Source: Selenomonas dianae
Lineage (GTDB): Bacteria; Bacillota; Negativicutes; Selenomonadales; Selenomonadaceae
Assembly (NCBI RefSeq): GCF_030644225.1
Contig: NZ_CP128650.1
Location: 382,001-446,000, forward strand
DNA: 64,000 nt
Reading direction: 5' to 3'
Both the position numbers and the translations under genes were made by a program. This document shows positions 2,379 through 13,567 of this stretch, piece by piece. Numbering within the stretch: position 1 is the first letter of the stretch; every line of letters begins with the position of its first letter. Under the pieces are notes generated by a model. It had not been told where the DNA came from. It was given only the letters and a program-made list of their open reading frames with translations, and searched no databases.

Positions 2379-4511
2379 ATGAGTACATGGACGAGAAAAG
2401 TCATGTTCGTGGGGCTTCCACGTTACTTCGAGCAGCTTCTTGCGGCGTGCTTCCGCAAGGAGGCGTGGGAAGTTTTTCGCATGGCGGCAGGGGAGACACG
2501 TTCGCCGCAGGGGATTCATACCTATGACTGCGATGTGACCGGCGCGGAGGCAAAGTCCGTCTTTGCCGTGCAGAACCTCGATCTCCTCATCTATCGGTTC
2601 GAACGTGAGCCGGCAGATGCGCTGCAGCATCTCGATGTGCTTCTGCGGATGGCGCAGACGGCGAAGGTAAAGCGTATTTTCCTGCTTTCCGGTGATGCGG
2701 TCTTTGCCCCCGGGACGCAGCCCGTGGAGACGGATCCGACCGCCCCCGAGACAGAGGTGGGGGCTCTTTTGGTGCGCCTCGAAACACTGAGCCTGTCCTA
2801 TCGTGCGCAGGGGCTTCCCGTCTCCGTCCTGCGTCTGCCCGAGCTCTTTGCGCCGGGGCAGACGCAGGAGGATGGGTTCATCGGCGGGCTTTTCAGCGCA
2901 CCGCTCATGCGCCGTCCGATCCCGCGCTATCCCATGCCGGAGGCTGTTTCCTACGGTCTTTTGGATGCGCGTGATGCCGTCTTTGCCATCTATCAGGCTG
3001 CTGCACGTGATTTTGCGGGAGCGTATCTCCACATCGCCCCCGCCGCAGGGACGACGGTCGCGGAGCTGTATCAGATCTGTGCGGGGTTTTTCCCGTGTAT
3101 GAATGAGAGATCAGAGCCGCGTGAGCCGCAGGGGCGTGCGGTTCTGCGGAGTGCGCTCATCGAGGAGCAGCTGGGCTGGCGTGCGCGCCGTGCGCTCGCC
3201 CCCGGGCTGAAAGAGACATACGAGGTGATGGAGGCGGCGCGCAGCACCAATACAGATGACCTGCGTGCGCTCGCACGGCGCGCACGGTTTGCGCGGCTGC
3301 GTCAGCGGATTGTTCCATACGCGGAAAACATCGCAGGAGCGCTCGTGACGTTCGGCATCTCGTATTTGCAGAGCGGCTCGTCTGTGAACAGCATGACGGC
3401 GTTTGACTTTGCCTTTCTCTACATCGGCTGCATGGGTCTGCTCTACGGCAAGGGGCAGGCATTGATTGCGGCGGGATTCTCGCTCGCTCTGCTCATTCAC
3501 AACGGGCTTGCAGCGGGCGGTGATCTCGTGGCGATGCTCTACAACCCGCGCGAGTTCCTGCATTTCGTGTCGTATTTCTTTGCCGCCGTGCTGACGGGGT
3601 ATTTTGCCGACCGCGCGAGCTATCAGCAGCTCGCGGACAGCCGCATCAAGCGTCGTCTGCAATATCGCTATTCCTTCCTTGAGAATATCTTTAAGGAAAA
3701 TCTCGCGATCAAGGATCGCCTCTATCGTCAGATTGTGAACTCGGACGACAGCATCGGCCGTCTCTACCGTATCGTTTCGCGTCTGGATTCCGTTGAGACG
3801 GAAAACCTCTACACACAGACGGCATCCGTGACGGCGGACATCTTGAGCGTGAAGGATATTGTGGTCTACATCGTGGGGGAGGGCGGCTGGTATCTGCGCC
3901 AAAAGGTGCGTCTCGGCACGCAAACGCATGACCTGCCGCGTTCTGTGCGCGTGGAGGACAATCCGTACCTCGTACAGATGCTTGAGGAGAAAAAGATTTT
4001 TGTCAACCGCGACCTCATCAAGGGGCTGCCCGATCTCGCCGCGCCCATCGTCTATGAGGGGCGCGTGATTGCGGTGCTCCAGATCTACCATCTGGACTTC
4101 GAGCAGTGGAGTCTGTATCAGCAGAACCTCCTGTCGATTACGGCACGCCTTGTTTCAAGCTCGCTCGGACGTGCGTATGAGTGGGAGAAGGAGACGGCGG
4201 ATCGCAAGTACGTGGGCGGGACACGCATCCTGAACAGGGAGGAGTTCGAAAAGGTGATCGAGGAGTTCCGCGAGCGCCGCCGTATGCAGCCGGACTACCC
4301 GGTTACGCTTCTCGCAGTCAAGATGGACGGGCGCAGCTACAGCGATCTGGATCGTCAGATCGCGCACAGCATCCGCGGGGAGGACTTTATCGGCACAACC
4401 GCTGAGGGCGTGTCCCTCCTCCTGCCCGATGTGGCGGGCAGGACGCTCGATATGGTGCGCGAACGTCTCGCCAAAGTCGGGGTGGAGACGGGGGAGAGTC
4501 AGGCGCTATGA
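2379..4511 (+). CDS. pelD: PelD-like c-di-GMP receptor with N-terminal degenerate epimerase (SDR) domain
   Basis: 710-residue inner-membrane protein. Residues 5 to about 275 resemble an NAD-dependent epimerase, but the Rossmann glycine motif is replaced by VGLPRYFEQ and the catalytic YxxxK is missing. Residues about 310-410 hold four membrane helices, about 447-594 a GAF-like domain, and about 637-707 a degenerate GGDEF domain. In that last domain the active-site motif has become TTAEGV, while the upstream inhibitory-site motif RxxD is kept as RGED (666-669). Membrane helices, GAF and dead GGDEF in this order are the layout of PelD, which binds c-di-GMP and switches on Pel synthesis. The stop overlaps the next start (ATGA), consistent with a pelDE pair. 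The start is uncertain: GTG 2262 and ATG 2334 are in-frame alternatives. Confidence 0.85.
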   Translation: MSTWTRKVMFVGLPRYFEQLLAACFRKEAWEVFRMAAGETRSPQGIHTYDCDVTGAEAKSVFAVQNLDLLIYRFEREPADALQHLDVLLRMAQTAKVKRIFLLSGDAVFAPGTQPVETDPTAPETEVGALLVRLETLSLSYRAQGLPVSVLRLPELFAPGQTQEDGFIGGLFSAPLMRRPIPRYPMPEAVSYGLLDARDAVFAIYQAAARDFAGAYLHIAPAAGTTVAELYQICAGFFPCMNERSEPREPQGRAVLRSALIEEQLGWRARRALAPGLKETYEVMEAARSTNTDDLRALARRARFARLRQRIVPYAENIAGALVTFGISYLQSGSSVNSMTAFDFAFLYIGCMGLLYGKGQALIAAGFSLALLIHNGLAAGGDLVAMLYNPREFLHFVSYFFAAVLTGYFADRASYQQLADSRIKRRLQYRYSFLENIFKENLAIKDRLYRQIVNSDDSIGRLYRIVSRLDSVETENLYTQTASVTADILSVKDIVVYIVGEGGWYLRQKVRLGTQTHDLPRSVRVEDNPYLVQMLEEKKIFVNRDLIKGLPDLAAPIVYEGRVIAVLQIYHLDFEQWSLYQQNLLSITARLVSSSLGRAYEWEKETADRKYVGGTRILNREEFEKVIEEFRERRRMQPDYPVTLLAVKMDGRSYSDLDRQIAHSIRGEDFIGTTAEGVSLLLPDVAGRTLDMVRERLAKVGVETGESQAL

Positions 4512-5452
4512 TGTGGGACGGACTTACAGCAGCAGACCTTCTCGGGATGATTCACGGGCGCTCTGCCCTTCCGCAGATCCTTCTGATCGCCTATCTCGCG
4601 CTCACCCTTCTCTATGTGCTCGTTGAGATGCGGCGGCGTGGGCGGATCTCGGCGGTGACCAAGGGGGCGTTTGCCCTCACCGTTCCGGGCTTCGGGCTTT
4701 TGATGCTCGTTCTCTACGAAATCATCGGTACGGCGCTCGGACTGATGGGACGCACGGGGCCTGAGGAGGAGGACGAGGATCTGAGCATGTCGTTTGGAGA
4801 GCACGCCTACAGCGGGGATATTGTACCGCTGCGGGATGTGTTTCTCGTGGACGATCCGAAGCTCAAGCGCAAGTTCTTTACCGATGCAATCAAACAGGAT
4901 GTTGTGGAGCGGCAGGCGATCCTGAGCGAGGCGGTGCATGACAGCGACCGTGAAATCGCCTACTATGCCGTGTCGATGATGACGGCGCATATGGAGCAGC
5001 TGAGTGAGGAGATCTATGCGCTTGAGGAGGCGATCAAGCGTGGGGCGGATGACGACGATCTCCTCAATGAATACGTGGACAAGGTGCGTGAGTTCCTGCT
5101 GCGTCAGTACGGCGATGCGGTGACACGGGAGCAGCAGCATACGCGCTATATGGAGATGCTGCGGATTCTCGCGGAGCGTCATCCCGATCACCCCGCTTAT
5201 CAGGCGGAGGAGATCCGTGCGCTGATCCGCAGCGGTCGGCTGCAGGAGGCGGAGGATGCCTGTGCGGCATTCCGTCAGCGGCATCCGGATGCGGAGCTGC
5301 CGCTGCTCCTCATGCTGCAACTCTATCAGGCCTCCTATGATTTGGCGAAGATACGGGAGACGATTGCGGCGATGAAACAGCTGCCGACCCGCCTCAGCAA
5401 TGAGGCAATGCAGGCACTCCGCTATTGGGATGGAGGTGCGGTACGTGAATAA
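4508..5452 (+). CDS. pelE: PelE-like membrane protein with TPR-type helices
   Basis: 314 residues. Two N-terminal membrane helices (about 20-40 and 53-75) are followed by an acidic linker (EEEDEDLS) and a long alpha-helical cytoplasmic region. Its repeating helix pairs in the last 100 residues look like tetratricopeptide repeats. PelE has this layout and in Pseudomonas forms the inner-membrane synthase complex with PelD, PelF and PelG. Sequence similarity is weak by eye. The assignment rests mainly on topology, on the 4-nt overlap with pelD and on the position before the deacetylase and pelF. Confidence 0.7.
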   Translation: MMWDGLTAADLLGMIHGRSALPQILLIAYLALTLLYVLVEMRRRGRISAVTKGAFALTVPGFGLLMLVLYEIIGTALGLMGRTGPEEEDEDLSMSFGEHAYSGDIVPLRDVFLVDDPKLKRKFFTDAIKQDVVERQAILSEAVHDSDREIAYYAVSMMTAHMEQLSEEIYALEEAIKRGADDDDLLNEYVDKVREFLLRQYGDAVTREQQHTRYMEMLRILAERHPDHPAYQAEEIRALIRSGRLQEAEDACAAFRQRHPDAELPLLLMLQLYQASYDLAKIRETIAAMKQLPTRLSNEAMQALRYWDGGAVRE

Positions 5453-7274
5453 GCGCAGTCTTTGCATTCTGCTCTTCATCGCGTTCCTCGCGGGGCTGTT
5501 CTTCCAGTACAGCCGCATGGACGGTTTCCTGCATCTGGGGCTGAGGGGCAATGCGTTGGATATGGGGCGGCTTTTGCGTCCTGCGGGGACGGGCGCGGAT
5601 CTCCCGCGCGAAAAATACCTCATCGTCTACGATCCGGCGGATGTGCCGAGTATGTATTCACGGCACAATATGGAGACGCTCCTCACGGAGAAGCGCAAGG
5701 CGTTCGAGAGCCGTCCGCTCACGGACAGCGTTGCGCCGGATGCCTCCTATCGCGGCGTTTTCCTCACGACGGGGCGGCTCGGGGCGGTGAAGTCTCTGCC
5801 GCAGCTTTTGGATTATGTACGCAGTGGGGGAACCTTGCACATCTTGCAGAAGTTCGAGCAGGAGGAGGACTTTCCCATCTCGGACGATGTACTGCATACG
5901 TTCGGTGTGGAGCAGATGGGGCGGGAGAAGGATGTCCTCGGCATCCATCTGCTGACGAACTTCCTTGTCGGTGGGAAGGATTTCCATTTCGGCGAGGGGA
6001 CGGTCTACACGACGCACGCCAATCTGCTCACGCTCGCGGCATCCGCGACGCGCCATATCGAGGCGCTGGACGGGACGCCGCTCCTCTGGGAGCAGCCGCT
6101 CGGCGCGGGGCGCATCTATGCCTACAACGGTGTGGAGCGCGATGATCGGACGAACGTCGGCATCCTGACGGCGATGATTGCACACTGCGGTGCGGATACG
6201 ATCTATCCGCTGGTGGGCGTAAAGATCTTTTATATCGACGATTTCCCGGCGCCGATTCCGGAGGGATATTTTTATAAAATCTACGATGAGCTCGGCGTCG
6301 ATACGGAGACGTTCTACCGTAAGATCTGGTGGCCGTTCATGCTGCAGCTGGCAAAGGATGAGGACATCCGCTATACGGGGGTCATCATCGAGACGTACGG
6401 CGCACAGGTCAAAGGACCCTTTCATCCGCTCGGCGGGCGTGCTGCGCGTGACGGGCTCATCATCTACGGACGTGAGCTCTTGAAGGCGGGCGGCGAACTG
6501 GGGCTGCACGGCTACAACCACCAGTCCCTCGCCCCCGATGGCTACGGACAGGGCGAGTTGGACTATGTGCCGTGGGAGAGTCAGGCGGATATGGAGGAGG
6601 CACTGCGCGAGCTGCGCAGCTACATCAAGTCCGTCTATCCGAACTACGAGTTCCGCTGCTATGTGCCGCCGTCGGATATTCTGAGCCCCGAGGGGAAGCA
6701 GGCGGTCGAAAATGTATTCCCCGAGGTCAAGGTGTTTGCCTCGCTCTTTGACGGGCCGGCGGATCACAAGGCGTACTACCAGAACTTTGAGCGCCGGGCG
6801 AACGGGGTGTATGAGATCCCGCGCATCAGTTCGGGACACGCCGCATCGGGGCTGATGTACTGGCAGGAGATCGGTGTGCTGAACTACATCGGTGTCTTTG
6901 CCCACTTTGTCCATCCCGATGAGATCTTCTATGAGGAGAGCAAGGACAGCAGCTGGGGGATCATGGGAACGGGGCTGAAAAACTTCATGCACGATGTCAA
7001 TCGGCGCTACCCGTGGCTGACGGCGACAACGTCCTCGGAGAGTATCCCGTACTTTTCGGATTTCTTCGACATGGACTACCGCGTGCGGTACACAGATGAC
7101 GGCATGGAGCTCTATACGTGGAACACGGCGGGCGAGCTGCGTTTCCTCCTGCGCACCGCGCATGTGATCGACCATGCGGAGGGATGCACGTTCGCGGTGG
7201 CGGATGAGGGGGTATACATCATCCGCACGAGCGAGCCCGAGGCGCGGATCTACTGGAAGGAGGCGGAGGAATGA
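5445..7274 (+). CDS. Membrane-anchored polysaccharide deacetylase-like protein (PelA deacetylase part, DUF2194-like)
   Basis: 609 residues with a single N-terminal membrane anchor (about 5-22), so the bulk is predicted to be periplasmic. A first Rossmann-like region (about 45-230) precedes a NodB-type (CE4) barrel. IDDFPAP places an Asp pair at 265-266, as in the metal-binding motif 1, and HGYNH gives His355 and His359 as in motif 2 (HxxxH). In Pseudomonas PelA, a CE4-like domain removes acetyl groups from the polymer. Here that activity is on its own protein and the hydrolase is encoded at 12557. The start is GTG 5445, 8 nt after GGAGG (5432-5436), overlapping pelE by 8 nt. Confidence 0.75.
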   Translation: MNKRSLCILLFIAFLAGLFFQYSRMDGFLHLGLRGNALDMGRLLRPAGTGADLPREKYLIVYDPADVPSMYSRHNMETLLTEKRKAFESRPLTDSVAPDASYRGVFLTTGRLGAVKSLPQLLDYVRSGGTLHILQKFEQEEDFPISDDVLHTFGVEQMGREKDVLGIHLLTNFLVGGKDFHFGEGTVYTTHANLLTLAASATRHIEALDGTPLLWEQPLGAGRIYAYNGVERDDRTNVGILTAMIAHCGADTIYPLVGVKIFYIDDFPAPIPEGYFYKIYDELGVDTETFYRKIWWPFMLQLAKDEDIRYTGVIIETYGAQVKGPFHPLGGRAARDGLIIYGRELLKAGGELGLHGYNHQSLAPDGYGQGELDYVPWESQADMEEALRELRSYIKSVYPNYEFRCYVPPSDILSPEGKQAVENVFPEVKVFASLFDGPADHKAYYQNFERRANGVYEIPRISSGHAASGLMYWQEIGVLNYIGVFAHFVHPDEIFYEESKDSSWGIMGTGLKNFMHDVNRRYPWLTATTSSESIPYFSDFFDMDYRVRYTDDGMELYTWNTAGELRFLLRTAHVIDHAEGCTFAVADEGVYIIRTSEPEARIYWKEAEE

Positions 7275-8713
7275 GGATCTGTCTCTTGGCGGAGGGCTGC
7301 TACCCATACGTTGTGGGCGGCGTGTCCTCTTGGGTTCAGATGCTCATGACGGGGCTGCCCGAGCATGAGTTCATCATCTACTCGATCGGTGCGGAGGCAA
7401 AGGATCGCGGCAAGTTCAAGTACAAGCTGCCCGAGAACTGCGTCGGGGTCGAGGAGGCATTTTTGGATGAGATTCTCTCCCTGCGCGCCTCAGATATGCG
7501 CGAGAATATTCTCACGGGGGAGGAGACGCAGACCCTCTATGAGTTCGTCAGTGAAAAGCGGAATGTGCCGCTGAAATATCTGGCGGAGATTTTTTGCTGC
7601 GGACGATGGAAGTCGCCGCTCGAAGTCTTTATGTCGAGCGACTTCTTCGATGTCATTGTACGCGTCTATCGTGAGCAGCATAACAATCTTCCATTTACGG
7701 ATTTTTTCTGGACGATGCGCTCGATGCTCCTGCCGCTGTTCTACCTGCTCCAGCAAAAACTGCCCGAGGCGGATGTGTACCACAGTGTCGCGACGGGCTA
7801 CTGCGGTGTGATCGGGGCGATGGCGGCAACGGTCTACGACAAGCCGTATATGATCACGGAGCACGGGATCTACTCGCGTGAGCGCGAGGCGGAGATCATC
7901 AAGAGCGACTGGGCAAAGACGGATTTCAAGGGGGTCTGGATTCAATACTTCTACTATCTGGCACGCCTCTCGTACAATACGGCGGATCACCTCTACACCC
8001 TGTTCGAGCACAACGGACAGATCGCCGCTGATCTCGGCTGTGCGCCGGAGAAGATCAACATTGTCCCGAACGGGGTTCATATGGAACGGTTTTCGCACAT
8101 TCCCGCGCTCGTCGATCACGGCGGGCCGATCACGATCGGCGCGGTGGTGCGTGTCGTGCCGATCAAGGACATTCTCACCCTCCTGCGTGCGTTTGCCATT
8201 GTCAAGCGCGAGATGAAGGATGCGACGCTCTATGTCATGGGCGGACTGGAGGAGGATCCGGACTATGTTGCGACGTGTCATCGGACGGTGCAGATGCTCG
8301 GGATCGAGGACGTGATCTTCACAGGTTCCATCCCCGTCGCGGACTATCTGCCGAAAATGGACATCATGGTGCTCTCAAGCATCAGCGAGGGGCAGCCGCT
8401 CGCCGTACTGGAGGGGTTCTCCGCGCACCGTCCCTATGTGACGACGGATGTGGGGTGCTGTCGCGAGCTGATCTACGGCGACAGCAAGGACCGATTCGGA
8501 ACGGCGGGCGCGGTGGTCGCGCCGATGGACTACGAGGCGATGGCGCATGAGATCCTGCGTCTGGCACGCAGCTATGAGCTGCGGCGCGACATGGCGGAGG
8601 TCGGCTTTGCGCGGACGCAGGCGTACTATACCTACGAGCAGTTTATCGAGGCGTACCGCAGGGCATACGAGATCGAGGCAAAGGAGGCAGGACATGGCAG
8701 GCGTCGGGTTTGA
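7271..8713 (+). CDS. pelF: PelF glycosyltransferase (GT4)
   Basis: 480-residue cytoplasmic GT-B enzyme. The N-terminal loop GGVSSWVQ and the opening MRICLLAEGCYPYVVGG are highly characteristic of PelF, which polymerises UDP-activated amino sugars. In the C-terminal half the EX7E motif is seen in SEGQPLAVLEGF. The length is close to the usual PelF (about 500 residues). The gene overlaps the deacetylase by 4 nt and pelG by 20 nt, so translation is probably coupled through the operon. Confidence 0.93.
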   Translation: MRICLLAEGCYPYVVGGVSSWVQMLMTGLPEHEFIIYSIGAEAKDRGKFKYKLPENCVGVEEAFLDEILSLRASDMRENILTGEETQTLYEFVSEKRNVPLKYLAEIFCCGRWKSPLEVFMSSDFFDVIVRVYREQHNNLPFTDFFWTMRSMLLPLFYLLQQKLPEADVYHSVATGYCGVIGAMAATVYDKPYMITEHGIYSREREAEIIKSDWAKTDFKGVWIQYFYYLARLSYNTADHLYTLFEHNGQIAADLGCAPEKINIVPNGVHMERFSHIPALVDHGGPITIGAVVRVVPIKDILTLLRAFAIVKREMKDATLYVMGGLEEDPDYVATCHRTVQMLGIEDVIFTGSIPVADYLPKMDIMVLSSISEGQPLAVLEGFSAHRPYVTTDVGCCRELIYGDSKDRFGTAGAVVAPMDYEAMAHEILRLARSYELRRDMAEVGFARTQAYYTYEQFIEAYRRAYEIEAKEAGHGRRRV

Positions 8714-10166
8714 GCTGAAACGCCTCTTCCGCGCACGTACGGCGGCGGGACACATCAAGGCGTATTCCTATTCCGCAATCGTGACGACGGGACCGTTCGC
8801 GCTCCTCACGGGCATGGTGCTCGCGATTCAGATGCTCTTTCAGGTCTACGATGCGGGACTGGATGAGTCGGCGGTCTTTCTGGGGGCGGTGGTTTACTCC
8901 TTCGTCTTTTCACAGCTGCTCTCATGCGGCTTTACGATTGTTTTAACGCGCTATCTTGCGGACTGTCTGACGGTGCAGCACTATCGCGATGTGACCCCCT
9001 CCATGTTCGGCATGAGTGCGCTCCTGCTCGTTCTCGGATCCATCGCCTCCCTCCTCTTTTTCTGGGGAAAACCGCTTGCCGTCGAGCTCAAGGTGCTCTC
9101 GCACCTTTTTTTCTCGCTGCTGCTCATGGTCTGGGTCGGCAGCGTATATCTCACGGCGGTCAAAAAGTTCAAGTATCTGATTCTCGGCTATCTGTCCGGG
9201 GTGCTCATCAGCTTCGGGCTTGCCGCGCTCTTTCTCCATACGGCGTGGCTTCCGCCCGCTGCGGGGGCGCTTTTTGCGATGGATGTGGGGATGGGGGTGC
9301 TGGTTCTCTTTTTCTTCCTCTACGTGACAAGCTGCTTCGGTCTGCCGCGGGACGGCATGATCTTTGCCTTTCTCCCGTACCTCGGGCGGCACGGACGGCT
9401 CTTTATCGGATCGTTCGGCTACACGCTCGGACTCTTTTTGCCGAACATCATCATCTGGCAGGGACCGTGGGGCGTTCTCATCCACGATACCTTCCTCTAT
9501 GCGCCGCGCTATGACGTGGTGGTGTTCTATGCGCTGCTCTCCATCCTGCCGCTCACAACGATGTTCGTCGTGAAGGTGGAAACGCATTTTTATGAGCGTT
9601 ATGCGCATTATTTCGGCGCAATCACACACGGCGGCAACCTCCACATGATCGAGGACGCGCGCAAGGATCTGCTCTATGTCATGTGGTTCGAGCTGCGGCA
9701 GGCGTTCGAGTTCCAGTTTGTCTTTACCCTCGTCTTTCTCGCGTTCGGCAACTATGTGCTCTCGTTTGCGGGACTGGACTACAACTCGGTGAATATGTTC
9801 AACGTCATGATCTTTGCCGCGTTCTTCTCGGGCGCACTGCAGGTGCTCATGATTATGCTCGAATACTTCGACTTCCAGAGCGGCGTGTGGCGCATCGGTG
9901 TGATCGCTGCGGGGGCGAATATCGTGTTTGGAATCCTCAGCCTCTGGATCGGCGAGAAGAGCTACGGATTCGGTTTCTTCCTCGCCACTGCCATCGCGCT
10001 CGCCTACAGTGTGTGGGCGCTCATCCGCTTCGGACGTGGCATCAACTACTATGTGTTCTGTGCGCAGCCCGTCTTTTATCAGGCAAATGCAGGGATTTTT
10101 TACACAATCGCGAATTTCCTCTATGGGGAAGATCTTCCCGATCTCGAAAGGATGGAAAAGGCATGA
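8694..10166 (+). CDS. pelG: PelG, polytopic inner-membrane Pel transporter
   Basis: 490 residues, almost entirely hydrophobic, with about 12 predicted membrane helices. The start MAGVGFELKRLF is typical of PelG, a member of the flippase/MATE-like superfamily thought to move the growing Pel chain across the inner membrane together with PelD, PelE and PelF. The ATG at 8694 is chosen because AAGGAGG lies 7 nt upstream. It lies inside the end of pelF. The stop overlaps the start of the outer-membrane protein gene (ATGA at 10163-10166). Confidence 0.92.
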   Translation: MAGVGFELKRLFRARTAAGHIKAYSYSAIVTTGPFALLTGMVLAIQMLFQVYDAGLDESAVFLGAVVYSFVFSQLLSCGFTIVLTRYLADCLTVQHYRDVTPSMFGMSALLLVLGSIASLLFFWGKPLAVELKVLSHLFFSLLLMVWVGSVYLTAVKKFKYLILGYLSGVLISFGLAALFLHTAWLPPAAGALFAMDVGMGVLVLFFFLYVTSCFGLPRDGMIFAFLPYLGRHGRLFIGSFGYTLGLFLPNIIIWQGPWGVLIHDTFLYAPRYDVVVFYALLSILPLTTMFVVKVETHFYERYAHYFGAITHGGNLHMIEDARKDLLYVMWFELRQAFEFQFVFTLVFLAFGNYVLSFAGLDYNSVNMFNVMIFAAFFSGALQVLMIMLEYFDFQSGVWRIGVIAAGANIVFGILSLWIGEKSYGFGFFLATAIALAYSVWALIRFGRGINYYVFCAQPVFYQANAGIFYTIANFLYGEDLPDLERMEKA

Positions 10167-12535
10167 GTATGGTGCGAAAGACGCTGCGCCGGCGCAGTGT
10201 GTTCCTGCGTCCTGCCGCAGCTGCTGCGTGTGCCGTGTATCTGGCGGGGGCGGCGCATAGCGTGTATGCGGCAAGTCACGATACCCTGCACGATGTGCCG
10301 GGCTATCTTTCCTATATGATGAATGTGGAGGGGGAGATCCGCTCCTACCATGCCGCCGTGGACGCGCTCGCACAGGCGAAGATAGATCTTGCAAATGCGC
10401 GGCACAATCTCGATGAGGCGCGTGCGGCAAAGGCGGATGCGGCGCAGAACCTTGAGCTGGTCGGGCGCAATCTCCGCGCTGCCGAGGATCATCTCGCCGC
10501 CGTCCGAATCGCACTCGGCGTGGCGGAGGAGGAGAGTGCGGCACGTACCCGAGAGGCAATCGCGGCGCAGCAGGCGGAGGCGGACTATGCACCGACCGTC
10601 TATGCGCAGCGCACGCAGATGGAGGGGCTCTATGCGCAGGCGAATGCGCTCGCGGGTGTGAGCGGGGGCGGTAGTGACGCCTCTGCGCGGCGCGCCGAGG
10701 TGGTGGCGCGTGTTCTGGATGAGGTCGGGTACGAGCAGAACCGCATTGTTGATGCGCAGATCATGGTGGAGGCGGCGCTCGCGGGCGGGGTCTCCGGCGT
10801 ACAGGATAACAGTGCTGCGTTTGCGGCGATCTCCGCGCAGGTCGATGCGGCACAGGCACGGCTCGATGCGGTCGAGTCTCAATTCGATGCGCTGATTACG
10901 GCGCGTGAGGCAGCGGAGGATGCGGAGCGTGATGCGCGTGAACGCGTCGCGGACTATCAGCAGGAGATTACTGCGAGCGAGGCGGATCTCACGCAGCTAC
11001 GGAGCGACCGCGTCGAGGCGGAGAACTACGATGCCGCGACGAAAAAATGGACGGACGAGGCAGTGCGCGATGAGGCGGCTGCGGTAGAACAGCTCGCACG
11101 CAGCGAGCACGATCTCAAGTATCTCGGCGAGGGCAGGGGCTATCAGACCGGGGCGGAGTACTATGCGTGGCACGGGGAACGCGCAGGACATCAGTTCTAT
11201 CTGCCCCTGTCCTACTTTGCGCGCACCCATGCGGGAAAGACGAAGCTCGACTATGGCCTCTCGACGGGCTATGTCAAGTCCTCGACGGGCTTTGAGAACG
11301 GCAGCGTCTCGGGCTGGACGGACACACAGTTGAGTGTTACCCTGCGGAATGAGAAGAAGATCAACAGTGTCAACTATGGCTTTGGTATCAGTATGCCGAC
11401 AGGGCAGAATAAAATCTATCAGCGTTCCACTGTCCCTGAGGGGCTGGCACGCTTTACAGACTTCGGTGCGGGCTGGCAGGTGACGCCGAGTATTGAGGTC
11501 ATACATAAGATCACGGAGCGTGACCGTCTGACGGCGCGTATCGCCTATAACATTCGCAATGGCTATGACTATGCGAAGGAGTCGGATGCACTGAAGAATG
11601 TATATGATGCTTTCTGCGCACAGCATACGACGATTTGGGGGAGTATGTATGATGCTATGTGGAATTACTGCAAAGAGCAATATTCGTCTCTCACGGAAGA
11701 AGAGTTGAAATCGAAGGTGCGTGATCTTACTGGGCGCGTGGCGAATTTGAAGCTTACAGAAGAGGATCGCGTGTTTCTGCAAAAAATGTCAAATGATCTT
11801 GGAAAAAACCTCACACCATCGGAAAGGGTGATGTTGGAAAACATTTCATTGGGCAATCTACAGGATGTATGGAAACTGCTTAAACAGCATAATCTAACGC
11901 TTAATGATGTTGTTCTGGATCATATTCCAAATGCCCATACGTCTCCCGGAGATATATTTTCGCAGGAACTCGAATACCTTCATGCGGGAGAGAAGCAGCA
12001 GTACATGGTGCAGCTCTATCATAATTCGACAACGCGGACATCACAGTATGCCATTATTCCGGATTATTACTATATTGATGAAGCGACTAAAAAACTTCAT
12101 CTTGGCTGGAAAAAGAACTATTACCGCGACGGCGACGATTGGGAGCTGCGGTTCTTCTATAATCACGCGCTTTCCAAGCATGACGAGTTGCGGTTTTACA
12201 GCATCTACGCACTCACTGAGGCAGCGAGCGGCATCGCCTCGCAAAGCATCGCACGGCAGTACTATGGTCTGGGGTTGCGGCACCGTGTCTCGGACAAGCT
12301 CGCGTGGCTGGCGATGGCGCATTATGCACGCGTGAACAATACCTCGGATCCGCTGCGCACCGCGCTCAATACGGGCGGCGGCTTCCGGCGCACATCCTTG
12401 GTTGGCGGCGTGGAGTGGAAGCTCTCTGAGCGTCAGAATTTTACCTTCCAGTTGGAGCGTTTTGTGCGCAGCGACGACGGCGGATTCGGCTATAACGGCT
12501 GGGCATTCACCCTCTGGTATCAGGAGGTCTTGTAA
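10163..12535 (+). CDS. Unrecognised coiled-coil plus beta-barrel outer-membrane protein, candidate Pel exporter
   Basis: 790 residues. A signal peptide (about 1-38, cleavage near VYAA) is followed by an Ala/Glu/Arg-rich, heptad-like alpha-helical region (about 45-325) that should form long coiled coils in the periplasm. From about residue 330 to the end the pattern changes to alternating aromatic/polar strands with turns (for example YLPLSYFA, WELRFFYNHA, FTFQLERF, WAFTLWYQ), typical of an outer-membrane barrel. A helical insertion of about 120 residues (479-602) interrupts the barrel and is visibly AT-richer. I recognise no named family. It is translationally coupled to pelG and stands where Gram-negative clusters carry pelB/pelC, so export across the outer membrane is a reasoned guess. 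A generic porin is the main alternative. Confidence 0.6.
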   Translation: MSMVRKTLRRRSVFLRPAAAAACAVYLAGAAHSVYAASHDTLHDVPGYLSYMMNVEGEIRSYHAAVDALAQAKIDLANARHNLDEARAAKADAAQNLELVGRNLRAAEDHLAAVRIALGVAEEESAARTREAIAAQQAEADYAPTVYAQRTQMEGLYAQANALAGVSGGGSDASARRAEVVARVLDEVGYEQNRIVDAQIMVEAALAGGVSGVQDNSAAFAAISAQVDAAQARLDAVESQFDALITAREAAEDAERDARERVADYQQEITASEADLTQLRSDRVEAENYDAATKKWTDEAVRDEAAAVEQLARSEHDLKYLGEGRGYQTGAEYYAWHGERAGHQFYLPLSYFARTHAGKTKLDYGLSTGYVKSSTGFENGSVSGWTDTQLSVTLRNEKKINSVNYGFGISMPTGQNKIYQRSTVPEGLARFTDFGAGWQVTPSIEVIHKITERDRLTARIAYNIRNGYDYAKESDALKNVYDAFCAQHTTIWGSMYDAMWNYCKEQYSSLTEEELKSKVRDLTGRVANLKLTEEDRVFLQKMSNDLGKNLTPSERVMLENISLGNLQDVWKLLKQHNLTLNDVVLDHIPNAHTSPGDIFSQELEYLHAGEKQQYMVQLYHNSTTRTSQYAIIPDYYYIDEATKKLHLGWKKNYYRDGDDWELRFFYNHALSKHDELRFYSIYALTEAASGIASQSIARQYYGLGLRHRVSDKLAWLAMAHYARVNNTSDPLRTALNTGGGFRRTSLVGGVEWKLSERQNFTFQLERFVRSDDGGFGYNGWAFTLWYQEVL

Positions 12536-12556: not shown

Positions 12557-13567
12557 ATGGAGAACATCAAAAAGAGCGTCGCCGCATTCCTCGTGGGGGC
12601 GGCGGGGCTGTTCGGGCTGAATCAGCTGCCGCACGCCTGCGGGAATTCCGTCACAGTCCCGCTGCGGATCGTTCCCGAAACGGCGATGATTGATCTCACG
12701 GAGCAGATCGGGGACTATGCACGCGGGCGCGTGCCATCCTTCCTGCTCGTCGGCAACGGTGCTGTGGCATTGCTTGAGGTGACGGAGGACAACGCAGAGG
12801 AGGATGTGGCGCGGCTCGTCCGCACACTCGACGGTGTCTTTATGGAGTCGGTCTTTTACGACGGCTACGAGGAACATGGGGACAAGGCGGAGCGGCGCGA
12901 TGCGGAGATGGACGAGTACATTGCCGCCATGCTGCGCAAGCCCCTCATGGCGGGCAAACAGGTCTTTACCCTCGACTATGTGAAGGGGGATAAAATTCGT
13001 GAGGTGCAGGGGCTGGGGGCTGCGGCGGGTTATGTCGCCGATGCGGGCGACCGTCTCCTCGATGTCGTTCCCGACCGCCCTCCGATGAACGAGAATGCGA
13101 ACGATGTCACGCAGCTGCGGCAGGTGAAGAACTTCCTTGTATTGCTGAATCCGCAGCATTATAAGACGCGTGCCGCGTATATCGACGCACTCGCCGCGAC
13201 GAACTACGATCTCCTCATCGTCGATCTCTACTATGGCGATACACCGCTCTCACCCTCTGAAACGCAGCGTCTGAGACACAAGGCAAACGGCGGCAAGCGT
13301 CTCCTCCTCGCCTATATGAGCATCGGCGAGGCATCGGACTATCGCACCTACTGGCAGAAGGACTGGGAAAAGCATCGCCCGCACTGGCTCGCGGAGCCGA
13401 ATCCCGAGTGGCCCGGCAGCTACAAGGCTCGCTACTGGTCGCAGGAGTGGCACGACCTCCTCTACGGCAGCCCTGATGCCTACCTCGACAAGATCATCGC
13501 GGCGGGCTTCGACGGCGCCTTCCTCGATGTCATGGATGCGTGGCAGTATTTTAAGAAACACGAGTGA
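12557..13567 (+). CDS. Exported PelA-type glycoside hydrolase (GH114/GH166-like, TM1410 family)
   Basis: 336 residues with an N-terminal hydrophobic signal (about 5-25). The fold is a TIM-barrel-like module resembling the polygalactosaminidase/PelA hydrolase group. LLIVDLYY (Asp223), AYMSIGEASDY (Glu258), the RYWSQEWHD strand and GFDGAFLDVMDAW (Asp324) line up with the acidic residues and strand ends of that group. It would cleave partly deacetylated GalNAc-type polymer during export or dispersal. It is last in the pel operon, 21 nt after the barrel gene and just before a bidirectional terminator. In Pseudomonas this activity is fused to the deacetylase in one PelA protein. Confidence 0.75.
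   Translation: MENIKKSVAAFLVGAAGLFGLNQLPHACGNSVTVPLRIVPETAMIDLTEQIGDYARGRVPSFLLVGNGAVALLEVTEDNAEEDVARLVRTLDGVFMESVFYDGYEEHGDKAERRDAEMDEYIAAMLRKPLMAGKQVFTLDYVKGDKIREVQGLGAAAGYVADAGDRLLDVVPDRPPMNENANDVTQLRQVKNFLVLLNPQHYKTRAAYIDALAATNYDLLIVDLYYGDTPLSPSETQRLRHKANGGKRLLLAYMSIGEASDYRTYWQKDWEKHRPHWLAEPNPEWPGSYKARYWSQEWHDLLYGSPDAYLDKIIAAGFDGAFLDVMDAWQYFKKHE

Follow-up and report, generated by a model that had tools for sequence, protein, structure and literature searches.

A coiled-coil/beta-barrel protein encoded after pelG, a candidate outer-membrane exporter of exopolysaccharides in Negativicutes

How does the biofilm polysaccharide Pel leave a Firmicute that has two membranes? The question is raised by a 64,000-nucleotide stretch of the Selenomonas dianae genome (NZ_CP128650.1, positions 382,001 to 446,000; hereafter the window). 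It carries a pel operon of the monoderm type (pelDEA-DA-FG). Operons of this type lack an outer-membrane component, although Selenomonas and its kin are enclosed by an outer membrane. The gene that directly follows pelG encodes a 790-amino-acid protein with a predicted coiled coil and beta-barrel. This protein probably provides the missing exit for such polymers in bacteria without the known exporter. The family to which it belongs offers a testable answer to the question of Pel exit, covering several synthase types.

The available passages of PMC7112168, PMC7112194, PMC12141448, PMC10665443, PMC5491611, PMC13339959 and PMC12826042 describe no outer-membrane component of the pel system in Negativicutes, and the portions of the openly licensed PMC literature at hand give no answer as to how Pel leaves such diderms. 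In the accessible part of a 2026 paper, PelF and PelG homologues are reported for Selenomonas sputigena strains, not for ATCC 33150, and S. sputigena ATCC 35185 is described as forming a robust surface biofilm (PMC13339959).

The gene after pelG and the predicted architecture of its product

In the list of open reading frames, the frame 10163-12535 is enclosed by a longer, GTG-started one. Its ATG (10163-10165) overlaps the pelG stop codon TGA (10164-10166), so the translational coupling to pelG claimed by the original prediction is real. The four-base overlap, as ATGA or GTGA, is kept in 9 of 17 further related loci. The features of the gene are:

10163..12535, + strand: coiled-coil and beta-barrel protein, candidate exopolysaccharide exporter, 790 amino acids (reading frame, alignments, model)
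10163..10166, + strand: ATGA overlap of the pelG stop with the start of the coiled-coil/barrel gene (sequence)
10163..10273, + strand: signal-like sequence, residues 1-37 (by eye; predicted local distance difference test, pLDDT, <50 in the model)
10292..10654, + strand: long helix 1, residues 44-164 (AlphaFold2 model)
10655..10816, + strand: hairpin tip, residues 165-218, variable, low confidence (alignment, model)
10817..11119, + strand: long helix 2, residues 219-319 (AlphaFold2 model)
11132..12529, + strand: predicted 16-stranded barrel, residues 324-789 including the insert (models, structure comparison)
11582..11923, + strand: helical insert, residues 474-587, within a loop placed on the outside (alignment, model; side deduced from the termini)

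The original prediction had described a signal peptide, a helical region and about 450 barrel residues. Residues 1 to 36-37, judged by eye, resemble a signal sequence with an A-x-A site. For the window protein, an AlphaFold2 model was built on a 17-sequence alignment (mean pLDDT 78.4, predicted template modelling score (pTM) 0.60). It has a disordered N-terminus, the two helices 44-164 and 219-319, and antiparallel strands up to residue 789, with helices 475-585 interrupting the barrel. The modelled barrel and helices thus stand, and the outcome that would have spoken against the prediction, a model with no barrel, did not appear. The length of the barrel was overestimated: the barrel proper comprises about 350 residues, and the mostly helical insert 474-587 is absent from the closest relatives.

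A barrel-only model of the close homologue at locus L002 (46 sequences) reached a mean pLDDT of 91.7 and a pTM of 0.86. By manual count, with strands split by DSSP joined, it has 16 membrane strands. Both termini and the short turns lie on one side and the long loops on the opposite side, which places the insert 474-587 in an outside loop. Invariant positions of the family alignment are P412-T413-G414, Q344, G437, Y468, Y777 and G779 (window numbering). Tests on the sequence alone were modest: the heptad-range periodicity of helix 1 and helix 2 was matched by 186 and 69 of 2000 shuffles, respectively, and the strand alternation of the barrel by 31 of 2000. The weight of the architecture is placed on conservation and models, not on these tests. 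At the level of these models, a helical arm joined to an outer-membrane barrel is shown.

In genome G028 the protein (L037:5073-8657) has 1194 amino acids; the barrel loop that holds the 110-residue insert of the window protein is occupied there by a very large one. In the relatives at L037, L038, L041 and L046, the signal-like segment is preceded by a long, arginine-rich N-terminal extension with repeats of the RMSRKRR type.

Occurrence with PelG and beside other synthases

Among 60 relative genomes, the candidate protein was found in 19 and PelG in 18, and all 18 are common to both. In 380 genomes of the class, strong relatives were present in 67, PelG over the cut-off in 59 and both in 58 (Fisher P 1.3e-57, uncorrected for kinship). 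A strong relative was defined by a best E of 4.5e-35 or better, which kept 67 of the 85 genomes with matches at E up to 0.001. The 18 dropped genomes (E 3.2e-7 and weaker) had short matches to the helical part only, none over the C-terminal half of the barrel. PelG matches below the cut-off in G079 and G247 were left out of the PelG count. The 58 of 59 takes in broken or partial copies (e.g. G031, G026); these, G023 and others were left out of the alignments, which hold 17 (A1) and 46 (A3) sequences. In the sole PelG genome without a relative, G262, the contig ends 52 bases after pelG.

The relative lies directly downstream of PelG in 55 of the 58 genomes: on the same strand, with its start at -10 to 599 bases from the end of the PelG match. 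In the remaining three it is 5.6 kb away in the same cluster (G025) or on a different contig (G016 and G236). Within the genus of the window, 6 genomes have both PelG and a relative and 8 have neither. A phylum sample of 398 genomes had strong relatives in 5, all of the window's family, and PelG over the cut-off in 13. Eight of these 13 are outside the class; none has a strong relative, and none was seen in the six neighbourhoods that were read.

The tie to pelG proposed by the original prediction is thus borne out by co-occurrence, but the family also occurs outside pel loci: nine of the 67 carriers have no PelG. Five of the nine adjoin other polysaccharide synthases. In G301, the neighbours are a GT2 synthase, a BcsB-family protein (146 bits, cut-off 21), a DUF2334 protein and a GGDEF protein, and the neighbourhood in G294 looks alike by eye. 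In G090, G118 and G119, a GT2 synthase (by Pfam in G090) and a polysaccharide-deacetylase-like protein are nearby, the latter over its cut-off in G118, below it in G090 and recognised by eye in G119. Second copies in G046 and G119 adjoin a BcsA-like GT2-PilZ protein, followed in G046 by MBOAT, AlgX-like and GH5 proteins. Together these give seven copies in six genomes that are tied to other synthases. The other four PelG-less carriers (G037, G126, G162 and G291) have no synthase nearby, and two of the four copies are at contig ends. A predicted outer-membrane barrel is encoded with a synthase in 55 of the 58 PelG carriers, and in seven copies beside other synthases.

In the tree, the seven non-pel copies fall into one 13-row set (100/99) with five pel copies and that of G037, and the pel/non-pel label requires two changes. 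The seven may or may not share a single origin.

One of the 58 carriers, G046, has PelG and the relative in a single open frame (L048:8171-11578, 1135 amino acids), with the signal-like segment internal. It may be a true fusion that signal peptidase cleaves, or else an artefact of sequencing or assembly.

The homologue in G031 (L036:11117-12670) is split by about 1.5 kb with a 476-amino-acid transposase-like frame, ISLre2-like by eye, and the upstream pel genes appear intact. Around the pelG of G236 (L091:8551-10038), no other pel gene was recognised within 18 kb; its exporter relative is the one on another contig.

Comparison with known exporters and barrel families

No PelB-type barrel was found in the 60 relative genomes, with a positive control that passed, and no BcsC-type barrel (PF05420) in 11 genomes carrying the coiled-coil/barrel family. 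Together with the sharing of the family across synthases, this is the main reason for reading the protein as an exporter.

The original prediction recognised no described family, and we likewise found the protein to be in none, as judged from sequence profiles: no Pfam or NCBIfam family matched above its cut-off, and the best matches were coiled-coil look-alikes. The whole-family profile matched myosin, SMC and tropomyosin coils, a result that points to a coiled coil but to nothing beyond it. A PDB sequence search with the barrel profile gave no match up to E 10. The window protein gave no match to PF24604 (B-barrel_PelB_C) with E allowed up to 1, and this family was not among the 14 listed for the 46 family barrels; the control, Azonexus PelB, matched at 3.6e-56. 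With the same E limit of 1, the window protein had no match to tetratricopeptide repeat (TPR) families either. Orthology to PelB was rejected on these grounds and on an hhalign probability of 2.8%. A phage origin was rejected as well, with no relative in viral contigs and one weak PHROG coil match (E 2.2e-4), as was spread by plasmids, since the plasmid collection gave no tblastn match even at E 10.

Membership of a known porin family (SLH/OmpM type) was the other outcome named as speaking against the prediction. The window protein had no SLH or known porin match (Pfam, E up to 1), and OmpM was rejected for want of an SLH domain. PF13557 (Phenol_MetA_deg) matched 2 of the 46 barrels (best E 3.3e-6), a pair that a re-scan of ten did not identify; the window protein had no match. 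In structure comparison, general porins gave similar Z with the full and barrel-only models. PelB was among the matches listed for the full model and not among the best 50 for the barrel-only model. An ordinary porin, or an OmpM-type envelope tether, that lies in the operon by chance would fit these Z values and the PF13557 matches. It is largely refuted by the missing SLH domain, by the co-occurrence in 58 of 59 PelG genomes and by the recurrent linkage to several synthases, and we regard it as highly improbable.

PelB, the exporter of Pel in Proteobacteria (PelBC structure 9h80), is likewise encoded in the pel operon, and the 16 strands of its barrel equal the number predicted here. It differs in having a TPR scaffold instead of a hairpin coiled coil, the PF24604 barrel, and a proposed uncleaved anchor where the candidate has a signal-like start. 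The PelB system also includes PelC, and no PelC gene was seen next to the candidate. In the available part of the source, the PelB scaffold is modelled at >20 nm (PMC12141448).

PgaA and BcsC, exporters of poly-N-acetylglucosamine (PNAG) and cellulose, also have TPR arms where the candidate has a coiled coil; PF05420 was absent from the 11 carrier genomes, and the barrel profile matched no PDB sequence. In alginate export, AlgE is 18-stranded and the TPR partner, AlgK, is a protein of its own, whereas the candidate has 16 predicted strands and its arm in the same chain. The family indicates, at the level of the models, that such exporters can do without TPR in their periplasmic arm.

Two systems of the same bacterial class share parts of the layout, as far as the accessible sections of the sources describe them. 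Transenvelope MlaD of Veillonella parvula joins a long helical stretch to an outer-membrane barrel at the C-terminus of one chain (PMC10665443), a layout that shortens the parts list and is shared by the candidate. MlaD differs in its lipid transport, MCE domain, uncleaved inner-membrane anchor and hexameric state. OmpM of Negativicutes is an outer-membrane barrel with a periplasmic extension, and has the SLH domain (PMC5491611) that the candidate lacks.

Proposed export function

The operon runs in the order PelD, PelE, DUF2194 deacetylase, PelF, PelG, exporter candidate and GH114 hydrolase. The assignments of PelG, DUF2194 and PelF by profile are unambiguous. The neighbours of the candidate gene are:

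2379..4511, + strand: PelD-like, epimerase-like N-terminus and GAF (profile search)
4508..5452, + strand: PelE-like (TPR_14 over its cut-off)
5430..7274, + strand: PelA-type deacetylase DUF2194 (PF09960, E 3.3e-119)
7271..8713, + strand: PelF glycosyltransferase (NF038011, E 7.4e-115)
8694..10166, + strand: PelG (PF16933, E 8.3e-121)
12557..13567, + strand: GH114-type glycoside hydrolase (PF03537; TIGR01370 below its cut-off)

We consider it likely that the candidate is the outer-membrane exit of the Pel machine in this diderm Firmicute. On the best reading, it acts like PelB without TPR or detectable sequence kinship, and serves several synthases in Negativicutes. After Sec export, the C-terminal 16-stranded barrel would insert in the outer membrane. 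The helical hairpin, whose 121 residues at 0.15 nm would measure up to ~18 nm when straight, would point into the periplasm, span the peptidoglycan and bring the barrel to PelDEFG and to the PelA-type deacetylase. The coiled coil would thereby do the job of the TPR scaffold in PelB, PgaA and BcsC. PelF would make the polymer, PelG and its partners (PelDE) would move it across the inner membrane, and the DUF2194 enzyme would deacetylate it before exit through the barrel; the GH114 enzyme would trim or release it. Outer-membrane localisation, contact with PelDEFG and passage of polymer through the barrel are what we infer. The hairpin, a presumed strut and docking arm, may also guide the polymer; it would be either a polymer path or a mere strut.

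Several observations weigh against this proposal. The net charge of the lumen is about neutral, not negative as the simplest electrostatic expectation would have it; the lumen side was deduced from strand alternation rather than from coordinates. At each of seven positions assigned to the lumen, at least 30 of the 46 barrels have an acidic residue, and conserved basic positions, e.g. R743 and K753 of P0001, lie on the same side. The similar Z of general porins, the PF13557 matches and the four PelG-less carriers without a nearby synthase count on the same side of the balance.

The four carriers would suit a protein that retains or arranges the finished polymer on the cell surface, with export left to a different channel. 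Wzi organises capsules at the surface. Such a role would also suit the great variation of the extracellular loops, where the window protein has a helical insert of 110 residues and the relative in G028 a much longer one. The lack of PelB-type barrels in the 60 relatives and of BcsC-type ones in the 11 genomes argues against it, as do the predicted topology, which puts the helical arm in the periplasm, the adjacency to pelG and the one in-frame fusion; we hold it to be unlikely. The neutral lumen and the long hairpin would fit a periplasmic scaffold or envelope spacer that places the PelA-type deacetylase and GH114, with the barrel as a mere anchor, and the accessible text on PelB has its TPR region binding PelA (PMC12141448). 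This is less probable still, given a predicted barrel size and fold class as in known exporters and the same failure to find another exporter in those genome sets.

If the candidate is the exporter, the same family would serve other synthases within the class. We give about even chances to a wider, synthase-independent version for Negativicutes. One coiled-coil/barrel family would export Pel, cellulose-like and other GT2-made polymers, its hairpin docking on differing inner-membrane synthases, and one lineage would produce it in a single chain with PelG. Fusobacteriota would have come independently to a similar solution, with a lipoprotein tail on PelG and a small barrel of their own.

Pel operons of Fusobacteriota were found in Cetobacterium somerae (L114:10409-13427) and Fusobacterium vincentii (L123:10415-14653). 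Their PelG (703 and 772 amino acids) continues in-frame into a lipoprotein-like tail with YDxNGFN-type repeats and is followed by a barrel candidate of 305 or 316 amino acids, with PF13505 (1.4e-6) in L123 only. This barrel has the position of the candidate, next after pelG, and the pel operon is likewise of the DUF2194 type, but at about 305-316 amino acids it is without the coiled coil. No kinship between the fusobacterial and the candidate barrel was detected in the two sequences compared. In L123, a GH114-like open reading frame, recognised by eye, follows the small barrel candidate.
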